Below, piece by piece: positions 2,594 to 54,700 of a stretch of 64,000 bases of DNA (position 1 is the first letter of the stretch; each line of letters opens with the position of its first letter). This DNA is from Amyelois transitella (lineage: Eukaryota; Arthropoda; Insecta; Lepidoptera; Pyralidae), in NCBI RefSeq assembly GCF_032362555.1, contig NC_083516.1, positions 4,365,001 through 4,429,000 of the forward strand, read 5' to 3'. A program made the translations under genes and the position numbers. The notes under the pieces were generated by a model. The model worked only from the letters and a program-made list of their open reading frames with translations, was not told the DNA's origin and made no database searches.

Positions 2594-3290
2594 TGAGTAA
2601 GAAAGAAGAAAGAAAGAAAGAAAAATCTTTATTTGGCGCAAGATGTAACATAACATTTTCATTCATAAACAGAGATAAAAATAAAAAAAAAATACATGAT
2701 GCGACCAAAAGGGTTTCCACTCAGCATATGCATGTGTATGATGAGGTTACACAATGCGCTGATTTTCAGTGGAACCTAGTACGGAGGCTTTGCCATTCAA
2801 TATGAAGGATACATATTAAAAATATAAACACAAAATAACAAGAAGACAGCAGTGCTAGGGAGTTAATATATGTTGAGTATGAACGTGAGTGTAACTATGT
2901 TCTTATTGTTGAAGCAAAGTAGACAAAAGGTAGGCAGGAAGGACAAAAGGTAGGTAGAAGGAAACTACAGAAAAATGCAAAGGTTATGTAAAGGTTTGCT
3001 GTTATGTGTTGGATTGAGATTGTAGTAAGTGACTTTTCAGTTTATCTTTGAAGTGTGATACCGTAGTGCAGTTACGCACAGGTGGCGGAAGATTGTTCCA
3101 ACACTTCGTAGCAGCGTATCGGAAGCTGCCACGAAAAGCAGCTGTATTGTGTTGTGGAAATATTAACCGAGTTGCAGTCCTCATTAGACATTGTGGGAAC
3201 TGTAATTTTTGATAGAGATAGGTAGGTTTCTTTTTGCGCATAATTCCAAACAGAAGTGATCCAAGGTGGAGTGTTCGACGATTTGACATG
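2594..3290 (-). mobile_element. 3' end of a non-LTR retrotransposon
   Basis: On the minus strand an open frame from 3289 to 3002 ends with the typical C-terminus of a LINE reverse-transcriptase ORF: FRYAATKCWNNLP followed by a short FKDKLKSHLL tail. About 370 bases after its stop comes AATAAAG, and then a TTTC-type microsatellite (2594-2625 on the plus strand reads as GAAA/AAAG units), which fits a retroelement with a simple-repeat tail. Nothing recognisable as the palm domain was found upstream, so this is a 5'-truncated copy. It sits in the first intron of the integrin gene. Confidence 0.7.
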
Positions 3291-3919
3291 TTTAATATAT
3301 CATTTTTATTTAAGAAAGGTGTAATGTGACATCTTCGCGGAATTTTAAAACAAAACCGAGTACATGTAAATAAAATATCGTCATCATTTTTAAGACATTT
3401 CTTAATGTCACTCGTAGCTACTCTTGAGTCGTTCGACTCAATCGTCCCAAACTTTGTCTGAGCAGGTAGACGGAGGTAAGTACAGCTACGGACAAAACCC
3501 GCGTGATCCTTTCGACAACACTGTTTAAAGAAAACTACAATGTTGCTGATATAGAGCCAATACTTGTATTGTCACCATTCTTTAAGTTTAAGATTTATGT
3601 TACAATGTTCCCAGACGCAGAAATATTGAGAAACGTGCGTGAACAGTAAATAGGTACAATCGCTCATTTTTAAAACATGATAAAAAACAAGTCTTGAGTT
3701 TGTTATTTAAAACTCAGACCACGCTCAAATAACACAATAGCGCTTTCTGATAAGCGCAGCACATTCTCGATAATTTTGATATCACACCAATATAAAGTAG
3801 TATTCTTGCAAAACAACACATTTCAAGAGATAAATATTTAGCTGGATGCAACCCATATGGGTGACGACCTTCGCTTATGACATCATACTGTACTTTTAAG
3901 ATTAAAATAAGCAACTCAC

Positions 3920-23768: not shown

Positions 23769-26700
23769 TTACATATCCCATATGAATATATCTTGGAGCA
23801 TTGCCAACGACTGCTGTTGCGTCTGAGAGCTGGCTGTCAAATCTACCGTCACGTACTTCGCAGCTTGCAATATCTTCATGCACGAAGCATTTTCAGGAAG
23901 CAATCTGTGACATAACTGGGTGTAGAGAGATTTTGCGCATTCATAATGAAACACTAAGGGGTCTAGGATTTCAGTGAGATCCGCTGGAGTGAGGAGACAG
24001 CACATGTGGGCTAAGGTCACGCAGAGCTGAAAGAAGTTTTTTTTATAAGTGTTAATTTTAGGGCCTACGCAGACCGGGACGTCATGGCAAGGGATTTTGC
24101 CGTGAGTCAGCGCACACCGGCTGCTTAGATACCGCGGCATACCAGCATTTTACCACGGCATGCCACGGCGTGCCGCGGCATTCCAGCACTTTGCCACGGC
24201 ATGCCCCGGCATGCCCCGGGGTGCCGCGGCATGACAAAGCACGCCTCAGCGACTCCTGCTGCCTGCAGTCTTCAGTTGCGTTTGATTGAGTGTTGGTGTG
24301 CCTCAGTTTTACAATGGTAGATTGGGATTTAGTGTTGATATCGATTATTGCAGATGAAGAAGAAAGTGCACAGGCTAATAATAGGAATAGAAGAAGATTT
24401 TGGGTTGATAATTTATGGAAAGAAAGGGAATCAAAGGGTGAATTCAATAATTTATTTAATGACTTAAAATACGACGTGCAAAAATTTTATGACTATCATA
24501 GAATGGATTATGAGAAATTTCAAGCACTGTTGAATATATGTCGACCATATATCGAAAAACAGAGGACCAATTTTCGCAACCCCATTGAAGCCGATCAAAG
24601 ATTATCCTTGTGTTTGAGGTGGGCAGTTAAATGATTGTATAAGTTTAATATTTTCTTCTTTTATTTAATTAAAAAAACAATTTTTTTTGCCAAATACAAT
24701 CATGAATTGTAGACACATAATAACGATTTTTATGTTTTTGCACTGATAAATCTTCTCACTGATAATTCCTGGATCTTTATTTCTTTTTACTTAATTTAGA
24801 GTACCTACTACTTTAGATTAGTTTCGTATTCAGAAACTGCAGTTTTGTAGCCAGACCCTGAAGCAGCTTCATAGCCAGGGCCCGAGGCGGTTTCATAACC
24901 AGACCGTGAAGCAGGTTCATAGCCAGAACCTGAGGCGGTTCCAAAGCCAGACCCCGAAGCTGCTTCATAACCAGAGCCTGAGGCAGTTCCAAAGCCAGAC
25001 CCCGAAGCTGCTTCATAACCAGAGCCTGAGGCAGTTCCAAAGCCAGACCCCGAAGCTGCTTCATAACCGGAGCCTGAGGCGGTTCCAAAGTCAGACCCCG
25101 AAGCTGCTTCATAGCCAGATCTTGAGGTGGTTTCATAGCCAGATCTTGAGGTGGTTTCATAGCCAGATCCTGATACAGCTTCATAGCCCAAGCCTGCCGC
25201 GGTTCCACAGCCAGATCTTGAAGTAAAAGCGGTACGGCATGGTCGTTGATGTTGCAAATTGGTAGAGACATCTTCAGATGTTGGAGCTGGAGTTCCCTCT
25301 ATGTAGTTTAATTCGGCGTCAGTTACCATATTAAATATTTGTCTCTTTATTCGGACCTGCTCTCTTTTTGGTAGCTTTTTTACTGTGGCAGCCATTGTTT
25401 GAAAGAACGAATCAATGGCGTCCACCTCCTTTTTCGATTCAATATATTTATTTAGTATTTCAGCAGTTGTTGTAGGTTCTGGTATTATTGAGGAATGGTG
25501 TGAATCATTGGTCATTCGCGAAACTGAACGTTCATCGCTATCAACGACAGCGGATTCTGCAAAAGAAGTCTGCGTATCCTCTGAAGAGGAGTCCAAATTC
25601 GAGGTTTGTTTTCTGTGCTGAATGAATTTTTTCAAAAACTCCAGCTCTTTTTCAAACTTGATAGGGCGTCGCTTTGTGTACGGGTCACCACTCTTTGTTT
25701 TTCTGTTATTCAGAGCTTTCCTAAAATTATTACGTATATTACTCCATATTTTCTGACATTCTTCACCTAAAACAAAACATAAGCAGGTAAAATGGTATAG
25801 AATCAGAATAAGTAGGTAATGGGAAAAGGCCTTAGATAGTGACTAGGTGACTAGGTTAGCACCAGCTATGTTTATGGGATTATATTGAGCTAATTTTTTT
25901 TCTAAGTAAAAATTACCACTGGCTTTACGGTGAAGGAAAATATCGTGAGGAATTCATAATTATATATAAATAAATATATCGTATTATTTAATTGACTTTG
26001 TTTAACTGTACCCTGTCTTTCACTCTGCCTCACTTACCCCTCTTTATATTATCTTTCAGATTTTTGATCACGGGAAGTAGCTTCAAGTCTCTAGGTTACA
26101 GCTATCGTATGGGGTTTAGTACAGTGCGCTCTATAGTACATGAAACTTGCCAAGTCATTTGGAATGTCCTAAGGCCTAGTGTTATGCCAAAACCAACAAG
26201 GGAAAAATGGACGCGAATCGCGATGGAATTTGATGAAAAATGGAATTTCCCGAACTGCATCGGTGCAATAGATGGTAAACATTTTAGGATAAGGGCACCT
26301 CGCAATAGTGGAAGTCTCTACATGAACTATAAAAAGTTTTTTAGTATCGTGCTACTAGCGGTTGTGGATGCAAATTATAAATTTGTGATTGCAGATGTAG
26401 GATCATATGGACGAAATAGTGATGGAGGTATAATGCAAAACTCAATATTTGGAAAAAAATTGACTTCTAATGCCCTCGATATTCCCCCAAAAAAACGTTT
26501 ACCGAGGACAGATCTTGAGTTGCCCTATGTTTTTATAGCAGACGAGGCTTTTCCGTTAACCACAAACATTATGAGACCATTTAGTAGCGACCGATTGACA
26601 GATGAAGCAATGAAAATATACAATTATCGTTTGAGTAGAGCCAGGCGTATCGTCGAAAATGCATTTGGTATACTTCAAGAACGTTTCGAATTATGTCAAA

Positions 26701-29700
26701 AAGGAATTCAGGTTCAACCAAAATATATTGATAATATCATTTTAGCATGTACTTGCTTACACAATTTCATCATAGGTGGTACAAGCACAGAAAGTCAAAG
26801 TATAGCAAGTGTAAGCATTAATTTAGAAAACGATAATAATATGAACAATGCATTAGATGGTACGACAGTACGGGAGATGTTTAAAGATTACTTTAACTCT
26901 GATGAGGGCTCGATTCCATGGCAAAACGATATTGTAAATAGACATTAATACCGTGTGAAGTATTAAAATATAATTATATTGCAAAAATATTTACCTGTTT
27001 TATTCATTTCTGTCCCAATTATTCTCCACGCATTGTTCTTCATTTGAGTGTTCATATAATGTTTTGATGACATATTATATAAATAATCATAGGCTTGAAC
27101 TAATGTTATTAATTTTTCCTCCATGTTGGAATAAAAAACGTAAAAAACTGGTCTCCGAAAAAAACACGTAGGTACACAGTCGTCAAAGACGCGGGCGCAA
27201 ATGGATGGTCAATGGTGTGCATTCCCCGCTTCTCTACCCCCACCGCCGCACCCCGCAGTATATTACTACGAGCGCTGGAGTCCGTGTCATGCCGTTGCCT
27301 ACCGCAGTATGCCGCGGCATCCCGCCACGGGAGCCTGTGACGAGCGCCGGAGTCCGTGTCATGCCGTTGCCTACCGCAGTATGCCGCGGCATCCCGCCAC
27401 GGGAGCCTGTGGCGTGTCTTTTCGATTAAATCCCTTTCAATGCCACGGCATCATTTTAAAGCATAGCAATTTATGTCGTATTTCTGTAACAGTACGGTTG
27501 AATGTCCATTAGTAAAAATTAAAATCCCTTGCCATTCCGTCCCGGTCTGCGTAGGCCTTTAGAGTTATTCCCTCGATTTGAATATTTAATTAAACACTCA
27601 AACATAATAATTGGGAAATTTTCTATAGAAAAAAAAACATTACTATAGTTAAACGTCACTTTTATAGAAAGAAAAAATACGAGATAATTCACTCAAACAA
27701 TTATACTTAAACATAGAGCCTGTGTGCGACATCAGTGATCGGGTAATAATAATTTTGTTGAAATTATCAGTTATAACAAAATAACAAATAATGTACTCGT
27801 TGCCTATACCACGAGAAACAAGCGTGATAATTTTTTTAAGTATTTTAAATACGTCGCAGTAATAAGCCTATCTTCGCGATTTTTATTGCTTCCAACTGGC
27901 CTAAGAAATTCCTCCTTCACGGGTGCGTCAAATGGCTGCGTTGACGTGCACCTTTGGATTCTTGCTTTTGAAGCGTAGCGATAGCAATAGAGCAGATTTA
28001 TTTTCAAAATAATCGCGTTAATCAGTTATCTCTCCATTGGATAAGACCGCCGTTGCAATATTTTTTTACATGTTTTCTGTTTTATGCAATAAAGTTACAA
28101 CAACAACAAAAGCAACCATTTTCAATATACCTGTTCTATGAGATTATCCTTATGTTTATATTCAGTGAAGTCGTCAACATTGGCTGCGTTCTCCATGGCC
28201 GCCATGATGCCACGCCACACGCCCGCAAACTGCTCGCCGTAGAACTCGCGGCTGCTCGGCGCTCGCAACGCAACTGCCGCGTTGATGCGCACCTTTAGAT
28301 TCTTGCATTCGAGACATAGTGTGCATAGACTTGGGAACACTTGCCTCTGTATACAATAAATATAAAAATTAAGGTAACAGAAAATTCAATACTATGAAAT
28401 ATTTTATATTTTCATCTTCTATTTATAATAATTAGTATGGACAATAAAAAGTGAAATATTGTTTTACCTGCCATCCACTGAAACATCTGAAGAGATATTC
28501 GTTTTTCATAGCGTTTCCTATCGCGTAACAAGCGTTCCACCGCACCTTCATATTGCTGACCTTGCACGAGCACTCCAAAAGCTTCCCTATTGCCCCTTCA
28601 CATATGGTCTTGATTTGACTGTTGCGTGATAAAAACTCGCTCGTTATCAATCGTAGAAAATTACCAAGGCCTCGCGTCGCACTCATTTTGACCTGAAATG
28701 GAAGACCGTAATATTTTTTTGATTCGATGGCTAATAATCAATTCAATACAAACAATAAAATTTAATTGCATAAATTAAGTCGAATAGTAAGATAATATAA
28801 GGCGGGCCGCCTTCTATTAACTTACTATTCGACTTTCTTTGTTTATAAGAAAAAGTAAAAAAAACACCTTTACCCGGAGTATCGTTAAATCAGTAGGTTT
28901 TACAAATAAATGGAATTTCCGAGGTTTTGTCCCGTGTACCAAACTAGTAATTAGTTACTATTTATTAATCGTAATTTACCTACTGTATTTATTACTACTA
29001 CTATCTTTGCAGTACATGACCCAATAAAATATAGACATCCTAATTAGCAGTTTTGCCCACAGTACAGCGTGAGAAAGCAATCTTTGTACCTTTACTCTTT
29101 GAACTGACTGGGTAGGTACAATGTTAAAATATATTCAAATAGATATAATAGTCATACTTAGCGGTTCTTTATCAGTAAACACATAAAGTTACTGTTATTT
29201 AAACATAGGCAATGAACCTAATCGTAACTGGACGTAACACGTGCTATGCACGTGAAGGATAATCGGTTTCTATGTATTCGTGACGCAAAGTTTTATGTTC
29301 AGAGATAATCCTAATACTAAATCAAACGAAAAGAGTTCATTTCACGAAAATTTTCAATTTTTTTAATGCATGTATTTTTATATATTTTATATATGAATAT
29401 CAAAATACAAATGTATAGCACAATTGGCTGACTGACTTGACTGGTTTCAACCATTAGGTCTGAAGTATTTATATTTTAAACACAGTCGAAAATAAAAATC
29501 TTTGATAATTAACTTTGTCTCCGTCGATAGAAGTGCTTGTATATTTCATTGTCATTCTTAAACAGCGAAGTGCAATGAAACCTTTTGTGAATTTATGAAC
29601 CTATGAACAGACTGTGAATGCAGAGTCCAAAAAAAAATTGGAAAGGACTTTTCAAACATTTAGTTTTTATGTGAATCAATCTTAAAACAATGAAAAAATT

Positions 29701-51700: not shown

Positions 51701-54700
51701 TCTCAATGTGAGAATCCATTTCTCAAAGTAAGAGTCGGTTACTCAGGTGTGAGAATCAGTTTCCAAAGATTATGTTGAAAATTTGTTTCTCCATTTGAGA
51801 ATACCTTTTCACAAATTTCACAATTTATCATACAATAATCATAAATAAATAAATATAAGAAAAACACGTCTACCAAACTCCACTTACCAACGCGACAGTA
51901 CTGCCCGGCGCTACTTTGAAGCTAACATTAGTAAGAATCAGTTTTTCAGGCCCATATCCAAATGAAACGTGCTTGAATTCAATGCCACCTCGTCTAATTA
52001 ACAAGTCTGGGGCTCCCACGGCATCCTTCACGTCGCTATCCACTCGCATCAGGTCGAACATGTTTTCCATATCAACAAAGTTCTTTTGGATTGCCCTAAA
52101 ATAAAAAAAATATATAAATACTTTGTCTCGGTGTCTGTTTTAAACCATTTTATATTATCTATCGCTTAATCTGATATGTTTGCGCCGAATCCAGATCATA
52201 TGTATTAATACGGTTAAAACAATGTGGGTATCCTTATTTAAGACCAAGTTGTAGAGCAAAACCTGTAAGTGGATATAAATTAATTACGTAATGCCAAAAC
52301 AAAGTCTTTATATATTACTATCACAACAGCAGAATTAGGGTTACGGTAGGCCTACTGTAAAAACTTATAAAAACTATTTGTCCGATTATTATCCCGAGTT
52401 TAAGACTTATTAGCAATATCTTCGGTAAAGACTAGTAAATTTATAGATACAGAAAATCACTTACCTATAATAAGTACCGAACCAGTTAAGCGGTACGTAG
52501 AGTTGCACTATGTAAGAGGCGAAAAGTACGTAATCACCAACAGTCAACTCAAATTTGGTGACCATAGAAATACACAGCAGAGAGCCGGCAAGTAGACCTG
52601 AGAGAAGAGAAAAATACATTTCATACATGACAGTTCGTATCTTTTTTAGTAGTGAAAGTTAATGTCAAGGTAATATTATAATCAGCTTTTTGATATCAAA
52701 TTATAAGTCTAGAAGAGACTATTTATCTTGAAATCTAACCAACTGTTATTATCAGTTTTTTATATTAATTGTAAGCACCTAAATAGTTGACATATATTTT
52801 GTTGAAAGAGCAATAGGACTTCCAAGTCCAAATATAAAGTTTGATAACCAGGTGATATTATTAGCATTTTTAATTTAATTTTCAAGTATAATTATTATTA
52901 CCTACTTACCACTGCAAATGATGACGTTCTGCATTGTATTGAGCATGTTCAATGTGATGAGAGATTTAAATTCTTCTTTCTGTGAACAAAAAAAAATAAA
53001 ACAATATATTTACCTATTTTGTAAAAAACATTCTTTAAAAAACCTGACAAATAGGAACAAAAGACGCGTCACTGTCGATTTTCCGGCGCCGCTCGGACCT
53101 ACCTGCAACCTGATAACTGACAGTTTAAATTCATGGGAAACCATGATCGAATATGAGTTGGGTTCTTATGCAAAGGTTGTTGCGGTCAGAGGGTGACGCT
53201 TCGTATGCAACCAGGACTAAAGACAGAGGAATGATACGAGTGTATGGGTAGTAATATTCTAACTACTAAATTACTTTTAGTCTGGGATATCATGTTCCGG
53301 ACAGAATACACATTCAAATATTTACACTCTTTACAATATTATATATTTTTGCTCAAATGGAAGTTAAACCTCTTAAGTCGGTTGCTTTGACAAATAATTG
53401 AATATAGCAAATCTCTACGGATCTTTGATTAGAGGTAGATTAAAAAGTACTAACCTTAAAAGTACTAAGAGTAATCTAATATATCAATAAACGATACAAA
53501 CCTGGTAGTTAACAATAGCTTCTCTATAAGACACAACTTCATAGCTCTCAGCGCCGTAATATTTGACAGTTTCGTAATTGAGCAAAGAGTCGACCGAACG
53601 CGCCTTCTGTTCGTTGTCAGCTAAGTTCATACGCCGTTGATACTTTGTCCGCCATTCCGTTACGGCGATCGTTGCAACTGAAAAAAATTATGAAAAATGT
53701 TGCAGTAGAATTCACGACTGTTTCTTTTTTTTTATTTGGCTATATTTTGCTGAGTGCCACGATGGGCAATGGCCTCTTTTGGTCTCCATTGATCTATATC
53801 GTAGGGAAGATGCAATCAGATCATCCGACTTATTAATTAAGATTCAGTGAACCCTCTCAGAAGGCGATTTTTGCGAGTCTAATAAATTATTTTTACACAG
53901 TTTATTAAAAAATCGCCAAATTATCATCCTTTACGGTATTTCCTGTTGCATCGTTTCTCTTGAGATGAGCCCAGAGTATTTAAATACAGCCGTTTTTAAA
54001 AAATAATTTGTAATTTTGCCAATTACCATTGATAATATTTGTTTAAAATATAATTTCAAACACTCACTTATATACAAAACCATAGTCGAGAAGACAATCA
54101 GTCCGAACCAAGCGTTAAACTGAGTTACGAAGTACACCACTGCCACTATAATATCCACCAGAGTCGGAGTTATAGAGAAAAGAATGTACGACAGCAAGTT
54201 GTCTATGGAATCCGTCCCGCGGTCCATTACGCGAAGGACTTCGCCGGTTTTGCGAGCGAGGTGCCATCGCAGAGGTAATTCGTGGAGGTGTTTGAATAAT
54301 TCTAGCTGAAATATTAAGAGAAATAAAATATTAAACAAGCCGCTAAAATGAATGGCGTCTGCCTTCGTTTGTTCTTGGAGGAGGAGGTTTGGGGGTGGGA
54401 GTATCGTACCCATACAGCACAGATAATCGTTCCCATTACCTGACCTAGATTTGCGCTTGCATTTGCAGGCCGATTCCTCTGCCTTGTTTACTCCTAGAAA
54501 TGGGTGTGGAATAATTTGGTGATTCTGTAAAAAAACTGAACATAATCTATAGATATGTGACCCTACACTAATAAGGATTAATAAAAGGTAACGATTTACT
54601 ATACCTGTAATTCCCTAGTAGTGTATTGCTGCACTTTGATCCACAAGAAGGAGCGCAGATTGTTCAGAAAGCCCATTCCGCCGGTTCCGCCGCCTTGCAG

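Follow-up and report, generated by a model that had tools for sequence, protein, structure and literature searches.

We analyzed a 64,000-nucleotide stretch of the genome of the lepidopteran Amyelois transitella (RefSeq assembly GCF_032362555.1, contig NC_083516.1, positions 4,365,001–4,429,000; hereafter the window, numbered from its first letter) and found within it a complete PIF/Harbinger element. Its membership of this class follows from a DDE_Tnp_4 transposase, a MADF second gene, terminal inverted repeats (TIRs) and a 3-bp target-site duplication (TSD). The element's ends were placed from the TIRs, the TSD and whole-element copies elsewhere in the genome, the TSD by comparison of flanks, and the subterminal repeats with TRF (on the right also by genome search):

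24061–27558, plus strand: complete PIF/Harbinger element, 3498 bp
24058–24060: left TSD, TTA
27559–27561: right TSD, TTA
24062–24098, plus strand: left TIR, 37 nt, 95% complementary to 27521–27557
27521–27557, minus strand: right TIR, pairing with the left arm
24130–24233: subterminal tandem repeats on the left, GC-rich and resembling CCACGGCATG, putative binding sites
27268–27411: right subterminal 72-bp tandem repeat, two copies

PIF/Harbinger target duplications show a preference for TWA. The original prediction, made from the window's sequence, had named the Harbinger class and these boundaries, and the TIRs, the TTA flanks and the DDE_Tnp_4 and MADF domain matches bear out both. The ORF beside the insertion had no Pfam match. 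The genome search also revealed several additional copies of the right subterminal 72-bp repeat in the C21 element.

The TIRs enclose two oppositely oriented genes of two coding exons apiece (repeats by TRF):

24314–24618, plus strand: transposase exon 1 (T1), ending ...LCLR, phase-2 donor AG/GT
24619–26059, plus strand: transposase intron, 1441 bp, GT-AG, holding MADF exon 2 in antisense
26060–26948, plus strand: transposase exon 2 (T2), DDE domain
26962–26967, plus strand: ATTAAA, putative poly(A) hexamer, located in the 46 bp that separate the transposase stop from MADF exon 1
26995–27124, minus strand: MADF exon 1 (M1), encoding the N-terminal half of the domain, with a phase-1 donor G/GT
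25767–26994, minus strand: MADF intron, 1228 bp, GT-AG, holding transposase exon 2 in antisense
24808–25766, minus strand: MADF exon 2 (M2), encoding the C-terminal half of the domain, the BESS motif and a repetitive C-terminus
24839–25223: tandem repeat encoding the SGSGYEAA-type MADF tail, 24-bp unit, 16 copies
24849–25173: 48-bp unit, 6.8 copies, within the MADF-tail repeat
24776–24781, minus strand: AATAAA, putative poly(A) hexamer, past the MADF stop and within the transposase intron
25767–26059: 293-bp spacer separating the back-to-back 3' splice sites

Joining the two transposase exons (24314–24618 and 26060–26948) gives a frame that is open throughout (397 aa), and the spliced protein matches DDE_Tnp_4 (PF13359) over the full length of the profile (positions 1–158, E 3e-32). 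Its IDGKH, DEAFP and ENAFG blocks, which we take to be the DDE triad, are conserved across three aligned families. The joined MADF frame (27124–26995 and 25766–24808) is also open throughout (362 aa), and the spliced protein covers all 84 positions (1–84) of PF10545 (E 5e-17) with a domain that spans the exon junction. The BESS match is weak on the whole MADF protein (19.5 bits vs a cut-off of 21) and slightly above the cut-off on exon 2 alone (21.5 bits).

The order on the DNA is T1(+)–M2(–)–T2(+)–M1(–), with each intron housing the other gene's last exon. Reciprocal interleaving with intact frames had been predicted and was confirmed: an exon of each gene lies in the intron of the other, both ORFs are open across the GT-AG junctions, and both domains are whole. 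The longest intronic ORFs antisense to the host gene, one per intron, are 344 and 318 aa, vs maxima of 153 and 124 aa in Markov-resampled controls (300 per intron), and so exceed chance. The coding exons themselves are disjoint, and the primary transcripts, bounded by their coding regions, overlap in antisense over 2141 bp (24808–26948); the approximately 2.3 kb originally given is reached only if untranslated regions are counted. The claim that no simple internal deletion could remove one gene without hitting the other is incorrect as stated, as any single-exon deletion kills one gene only; it does apply to one deletion taking both exons of a gene, which must strike the other. A plus-strand AATAAA at 25969, within the transposase intron, could terminate the transposase transcript prematurely and counts against the proposed gene model; a search of the minus strand of the MADF intron found no AATAAA.

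In the same genome, ten copies reach both element ends, at separate sites. Five of the seven uninterrupted copies, the window's included, are listed at 100% identity over 3496 bp, and a fully read copy at C30 is 100% identical although another Harbinger splits it. The flanking 3-bp duplications (TTA, TAA, TAC or GAA) agree in nine of the ten copies; the flanks of the odd one, C7:11065159, disagree (ACA/TTA). The element is young and recently mobile, as near-identical copies with TSDs lie at different sites. Dense transposon nests in this genome could be assembled wrongly, which would make the layout a misassembly, or a one-off rearrangement, of this copy. However, the sister copies, which the original prediction had singled out as the place where non-interleaved genes might be found, carry the same arrangement, and the same order recurs in ten further families, of which nine have the full set of four exons. 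We rejected a one-off rearrangement and consider an artifact of this kind virtually inconceivable: with so many sister copies flanked by TSDs, the layout is not an oddity of one rearranged copy.

Reading 11 divergent families with the same introns (lineage I) showed all four exons in the same order in 10, by profile in W, B, C, D, E, F, G and J and with completion by eye in H and K; family I has three, its first exon being missing or beyond the stretch read. The T1 donor GT, in phase 2 (10/10), the T2 acceptor AG (11/11) and the M2 acceptor AG (9/9 families compared) lie at homologous places, and a phase-1 GT closes M1 in all 10 families compared, with the site in E–K picked by eye. The transposase second exons are often a mere 40–50% identical across families. 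In nine families, and in eight loci of a second lineage described below, the two 3' splice sites are arranged back to back with 37–293 bp between them. Comparisons between near families suggest that the exons are under purifying selection, with dN/dS of 0.06 for T2 of W–B and of 0.11 (T1) and 0.16 (T2) for C–D, and pN/pS of 0.23–0.35 where synonymous sites are saturated; the far comparison W–C, weak on selection, gave a dN/dS of 0.45 for MADF exon 2 and a pN/pS of 0.49–0.62 for the other exons. From the conserved splice sites, the frames and the selection, we infer that both introns are removed in vivo.

A broader tally, made by coordinates only and with 150 of 461 MADF candidates scored, covered 124 lineage I T2 matches. 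Among the matches listed, at least 53 have a MADF exon at the interleaved place, and MADF exon 1 lies downstream in antisense in 46 and downstream on the same strand in 3; 14 of these 46 first-exon matches have E-values of 0.3–0.35, and 11 of the 14 belong to family F, which was read directly as L055. The 71 T2 matches with no listed neighbor are uninformative because only 150 of the 461 candidates were scored. The input comprised the 150 MADF rows plus 129 rows and 58 of 59 rows of two other lists, the omitted row being a duplicate.

A second transposase lineage (lineage II) is split at other codons and phases, with a MADF-type exon 2 antisense in the intron at 11 of 13 loci. The lineage I transposase intron is in phase 2 at LxLR^F/Y and that of lineage II in phase 0, ~40 codons later; the MADF intron is in phase 1 in mid-domain in lineage I and in phase 0 past the domain in the four lineage II loci mapped on both sides, whereas no clear joint between MADF exons 1 and 2 emerged at L015, L021, L025 and L030. 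We had entertained plain tail-to-tail genes for lineage II, a reading overturned by long antisense ORFs in its transposase introns: 167–255 aa at eight of nine loci, a length matched by 0 of 300 resampled introns, and 173–219 aa at three of four further loci (without resampling). The BESS-like tail of lineage II exon 2 matches exon 2 of lineage I (hhalign probability 93, E 3e-7, 46 columns), and against Pfam this exon reached no cut-off. A MADF exon 2 was looked for and not found at L017 and at the second T2 of L032+L012 (505 bp upstream examined). The transposase donor of L022 is one base away from the expected phase, so this copy may be broken. T2 of L015–L030 has a dN/dS of 0.09. The original prediction had Harbinger elements normally carrying their two genes side by side, an expectation contradicted here by interleaving in all 11 intron-sharing families and 11 of 13 lineage II loci. 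Since the same order is found across lineages with different introns, the interleaving appears to be old, outlasting the introns that create it, and these comparisons indicate a stable state, typical of the lineage rather than of a single copy. Additional, more distant transposase lineages lacking interleaving may exist in this genome.

Searches of viral contigs found no relatives of the element, and genome contigs beyond this genome yielded one, the contaminant contig L054, whose transposase lacks the introns of both lineages. This contig stops inside the transposase, and lineage I MADF exon profiles gave nothing better than E 0.25 on it. One hypothesis is that interleaving arose twice, independently in each transposase lineage; two origins would suggest that the state is selected. 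In favor of this, intron place and phase differ between the lineages in both genes, and L054, with neither transposase intron, branches on the side of lineage I. A single origin with intron relocation fits the same data, however; the placement of L054 is weak, as a lineage I clade excluding it is not rejected (p-AU 0.245), and the tree is unrooted. We regard two origins as rather doubtful.

Judging from the sequences, we are highly confident that the element is a recently mobile PIF/Harbinger transposon with two facing, interlocked genes. Each gene would begin near one TIR, from a putative promoter there, and be transcribed inward; each primary transcript would pass antisense across its partner's last exon, which would be discarded along with the intron, producing two mRNAs with disjoint coding exons from a single 2.1-kb stretch. 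The MADF protein and the DDE transposase would then cooperate, as in zebrafish and rice relatives, for which a MADF/Myb-like partner is reported to provide DNA binding and nuclear import for the DDE transposase, both proteins being needed for transposition (PMC9710019).

The layout most likely persists through lock-in, as no single event undoes it without breaking a gene, and a layout irreversible in one event would be inherited by a large lineage. It might have arisen neutrally and in one event, by tandem duplication of a T2+M2 block in tail-to-tail, intron-bearing genes followed by complementary loss of one T2 and one M2, which would yield the interleaved order. The outer exons still face each other, losses inside introns would be tolerated, and the order is constant in all 11 lineage I families read. 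However, no intermediate with a duplicated T2 or M2 was seen among the loci examined (not a systematic search), and the two different intron sets are left unexplained. Family J does have a second T1-like piece upstream, dissimilar at the DNA level and without a donor at its end, which resembles debris from a different element rather than an intermediate. We consider this route a serious candidate that falls somewhat short of an even chance. Alternatively, the arrangement could be a self-limiting device, in which convergent transcription or nascent antisense RNA keeps output low and balanced or feeds small-RNA silencing. The convergent antisense overlap and the poly(A) hexamers placed in the inter-exon gaps are consistent with such a device; because the overlap is intronic, cytoplasmic dsRNA is not expected, which counts against it, and we think it unlikely. 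Lock-in is our preferred reading; colliding transcription that balances or limits the two partner proteins might also bring a benefit. More speculatively, and with the chances against it, reciprocal interleaving could be the standard in a large insect PIF/Harbinger radiation. It would then have been attained, or anchored anew, two or more times through introns that are non-homologous in both genes, and would be kept because two proteins that have to cooperate are thereby forced into expression that is linked, depends on splicing and is mutually limiting.

Where genes overlap in host genomes, they are mostly separate genes. In this case the overlap joins the two genes of one selfish unit and their order is held across two intron sets, so the system lends itself to testing whether selection maintains antisense interleaving or whether it simply cannot be reversed. 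Software for gene finding or transposon annotation that works strand by strand or exon by exon would likely label such elements broken, fragmented or one-gene, and MADF partners concealed in transposase introns are likely missed by such annotation.

We found no account of interleaved Harbinger genes in the open-access literature (open-licence PMC text), and the terms overlap, interleaved, antisense and nested are absent from the main text of PMC9710019. Host genes that overlap in antiparallel pairs, nested or embedded, likewise share a locus on opposite strands via introns, but one survey heads its comparison 'poor evolutionary conservation' (PMC2330155), whereas both genes of the element are parts of a single mobile unit with a layout that recurs in many families. 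Known PIF/Harbinger elements (Harbinger3_DR, Pong/PIF and insect PIF) also combine a DDE transposase, a MADF/Myb-like gene, short TIRs and a 3-bp TSD (PMC9710019). In the portions of the accounts consulted, however, their genes are adjacent in variable order, with mutual exon-in-intron nesting absent, and the two genes are reported as neighbors in other organisms and in domesticated pairs (PMC9710019, PMC2213677); in Medicago, orf1 precedes the transposase in five elements and follows it in six (PMC2213677). The same part of PMC9710019 describes the co-domesticated insect PIF pairs LPLG2-LPM2, APLG-APM and DPLG7-DPM7, which like this element couple a transposase with a MADF protein, thought to stem from a single insertion, but are host genes without TIRs, either adjacent (in varying direction) or separated. 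It also describes cockroach BPLG1 and BPLG2, for the transposase only, as retaining a two-exon structure like that seen here (PMC9710019).

The window occupies positions 4365001–4429000 of contig C12 in the 327-Mb, 33-contig genome assembly, and its PIF/Harbinger element at 24061–27558 has inverted ends of 37 nt (95% complementary) with TTA on both flanks. The original prediction held that the element's two genes are interleaved, the last exon of each lying inside the intron of the other, in the order transposase exon 1 (T1), MADF exon 2 (M2), transposase exon 2 (T2), MADF exon 1 (M1). The features are as follows.

24130–24233: GC-rich tandem repeats inside the left end, outward of the genes
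24314–24618 and 26060–26948, plus strand: transposase gene (397 aa, uninterrupted once the predicted exons are joined; GT-AG intron)
24781–24776: poly(A) hexamer soon past the MADF stop, within the transposase intron
27124–26995 and 25766–24808, minus strand: MADF gene (362 aa, uninterrupted once the predicted exons are joined; GT-AG intron)
26962–26967: poly(A) hexamer 13 nt past the transposase stop, within the 46-bp gap ahead of M1
27268–27411: GC-rich tandem repeat, 72 bp x 2, inside the right end, outward of the genes

The transposase matches DDE_Tnp_4 (E 3e-32), and the 362-aa protein carries a complete MADF domain across the exon junction (E 5e-17); a BESS motif is weak in the whole protein (19.5 bits against a cut-off of 21) and marginally above cut-off in M2 by itself (21.5 bits). 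Antisense open frames reach 344 and 318 aa in the two introns, versus maxima of 153 and 124 aa among 300 Markov-resampled sequences per intron. Given the open joined frames, the domain matches and the length of these intron ORFs, the predicted order is real. The transposase intron (1441 bp) encloses M2, the MADF intron (1228 bp) encloses T2, and the two genes' 3' splice sites lie back to back, separated by 293 bp. Measured between coding ends, the primary transcripts overlap by 2141 bp and the coding exons are disjoint. An additional plus-strand AATAAA at 25969, within the transposase intron, counts against a clean picture.

The interleaving could have been a rearrangement of this one copy, a reading contradicted by the sister copies, in which the interleaved unit is present at separate sites. 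Searching the genome with the whole element at DNA level (30 candidates, all scored) identified ten copies reaching both ends. Seven are uninterrupted: five at 100% as listed (C27:3150600, C20:7311041, the window, C7:11065159 and C30:1831051), one at 99% and slightly short (C14:7555388), and one with an expanded 72-bp array (C21:759547). Three are split by insertions (C27:2949682–2976759, C23:4801199–4809907 and C30:1847095–1853663), and a further, truncated piece lies on C26. Matching 3-bp flanks (TTA, TAA, TAC or GAA) border 9/10 copies, the C7 copy being unmatched. The split C30 copy, compared in full with the window copy, shows 100% identity and is split by another Harbinger; C30:1831051 shows one difference across the 2247 bp compared. 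Because near-identical copies reach both ends and have matching flanks, the interleaved unit is mobile as a whole, and recently so. The otherwise full copy at C21:759547–763906 has several units of the right subterminal 72-bp repeat beyond the window's two.

Searching the genome with T2 (129 of 398 candidates scored) yielded at least 124 matches starting at, or within 8 residues of, the window's exon boundary; judged by where they start, all 124 would carry the intron. We compared 11 families with these introns (lineage I: W, the window element; B on C32; C and D on C7; E on C30; F on C1; G on C3; H on C28; I on C12; J on C20; K on C19). All four exons, on the same strands and in the same order, were placed in 10/11, eight by profile and H and K completed by eye; in family I, M2, T2 and M1 were located, with T1 beyond the stretch covered or missing. 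Two partly covered elements are consistent with the interleaved order, the first element of L035 (M2, T2, M1) and the right end of L010 (T2, M1). Across the families, homologous positions carry a phase 2 GT as T1 donor (10/10), AG as T2 acceptor (11/11) and AG as M2 acceptor in the families displayed (9/9); M1 ends at a phase-1 GT in 10/10 displayed, where the choice for E–K was made by eye. Damage occurs in some copies: insertions in B, and M2 breaks in D and K.

For T2, dN/dS is 0.06 between W and B (127 codons) and 0.16 between C and D, for which T1 gives 0.11. Synonymous sites are saturated in other near-family pairs (pN/pS 0.23–0.35), and the far pair W–C gives dN/dS 0.45 for M2 and pN/pS 0.49–0.62 for other exons. 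By coordinates alone, a listed MADF exon lies at the interleaved place for at least 53 of the 124 T2 matches. Around these matches, MADF first exons are downstream antisense in 46 cases versus downstream on the same strand in 3, with another 2 antisense but upstream, and 2 MADF matches nearby that are unsplit; 14 of the 46 are weak (E 0.3–0.35), of which 11 belong to family F, confirmed directly. The other 71 T2 matches are uninformative, since the MADF exons were drawn from the 150 scored among 461 candidates.

Loci of a second transposase lineage (lineage II) have their transposase intron (593–911 bp) about 40 codons later than lineage I. An antisense ORF of 167–255 aa occupies this intron at 8/9 loci (A, L015, L016, L021, L022, L024, L025 and L030, with L015 and L021 near copies of one family), a length matched by 0/300 resampled sequences per intron; a long antisense ORF was looked for in the L017 transposase intron and none was found. 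Three of four further loci have one: L019 (198 aa), L009/L010 (an L025-family copy; 173 aa) and another element within L015 (219 aa; T1 not seen). The second T2 of L032+L012 has none within the 505 bp examined. At the eight mapped loci every ORF begins past a 3' splice site, inside the transposase intron. In lineage II, MADF exon 1 is placed downstream in antisense orientation. Plain tail-to-tail genes were rejected as a description of lineage II; the antisense ORFs are inside transposase introns. The acceptors of the two genes are 37–152 bp apart. Splice phase is 0 for the transposase in 7/8 (L022 is off by one base) and for MADF in four of the eight, those mapped on both sides of the joint between MADF exons 1 and 2. 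A profile of seven of the ORFs aligns with lineage I M2 across 46 columns of a BESS-like segment (probability 93, E 3e-7); Pfam recognised no domain in the lineage II exon 2 ORFs. The window's MADF tail is encoded by a 24/48-bp repeat, with a long Ser/Gly/Tyr repeat at the C-terminus (24839–25223); in family C a short repeat of another kind takes this place, and proline- or threonine-rich repeats occur there in some lineage II proteins.

In the tree, one branch separates lineages I and II in 86% of bootstrap trees when all 23 rows are included and in 94% when the long row H is dropped. The interleaved order has outlasted the introns of both genes, whether these were replaced or chosen independently. 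L054, a relative from outside this genome, is without either transposase intron and groups weakly on the lineage I side. Its contig is probably a contaminant, as it carries a eukaryote-type PIF transposase (2679–3655) and is filed under a betaproteobacterial MAG.

In the openly licensed text searched, PIF/Harbinger papers describe the two genes as neighbours (e.g. PMC9710019, whose main text uses none of the terms overlap, interleaved, antisense or nested). Within this text, we found no description of interleaved Harbinger genes (PMC9710019, PMC9179366, PMC2213677, PMC11893794, PMC7998251, PMC4528330, PMC2891614, PMC2330155), and to that extent the layout is previously undescribed.

Anatomy, conservation and mobility of the interleaved unit are direct observations; its expression we can propose. 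Most likely, each gene would be transcribed inwards from a putative promoter near its own TIR, and each transcript would splice out the other gene's last exon. The two proteins would then cooperate, by analogy with zebrafish Harbinger3_DR, whose Myb-like partner is reported to bring the transposase into the nucleus and to bind subterminal sites (PMC9710019); the MADF protein may act likewise. The layout may persist either because it is hard to undo or because it is favoured. The proposal that neither gene can be deleted without hitting the other holds in part: a single deletion cannot cleanly remove a whole gene, but losing T1, M2, T2 or M1 singly inactivates one gene only.

Many listed Harbinger and MADF matches concentrate in a few dense transposon nests (C7 2.77–3.1 Mb; C19 1.8–2.05 Mb; C20 1.82–2.0 and 7.16–7.36 Mb; C23 4.8–4.85 Mb; C27 2.6–3.2 Mb; C30 1.8–1.9 Mb), with some elements inserted into each other. 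The window element may have inserted in a host intron near the branch-point region, since a minus-strand ORF (23769–24149), which had no Pfam match, has a candidate 3' splice site about 30 bp away (24029–24060). Elsewhere in the window, minus-strand ORFs resemble what we take to be a segment of an ABCB6-type transporter (53931–54614) and, presumably, the end of a non-LTR retrotransposon reverse transcriptase (3002–3571).
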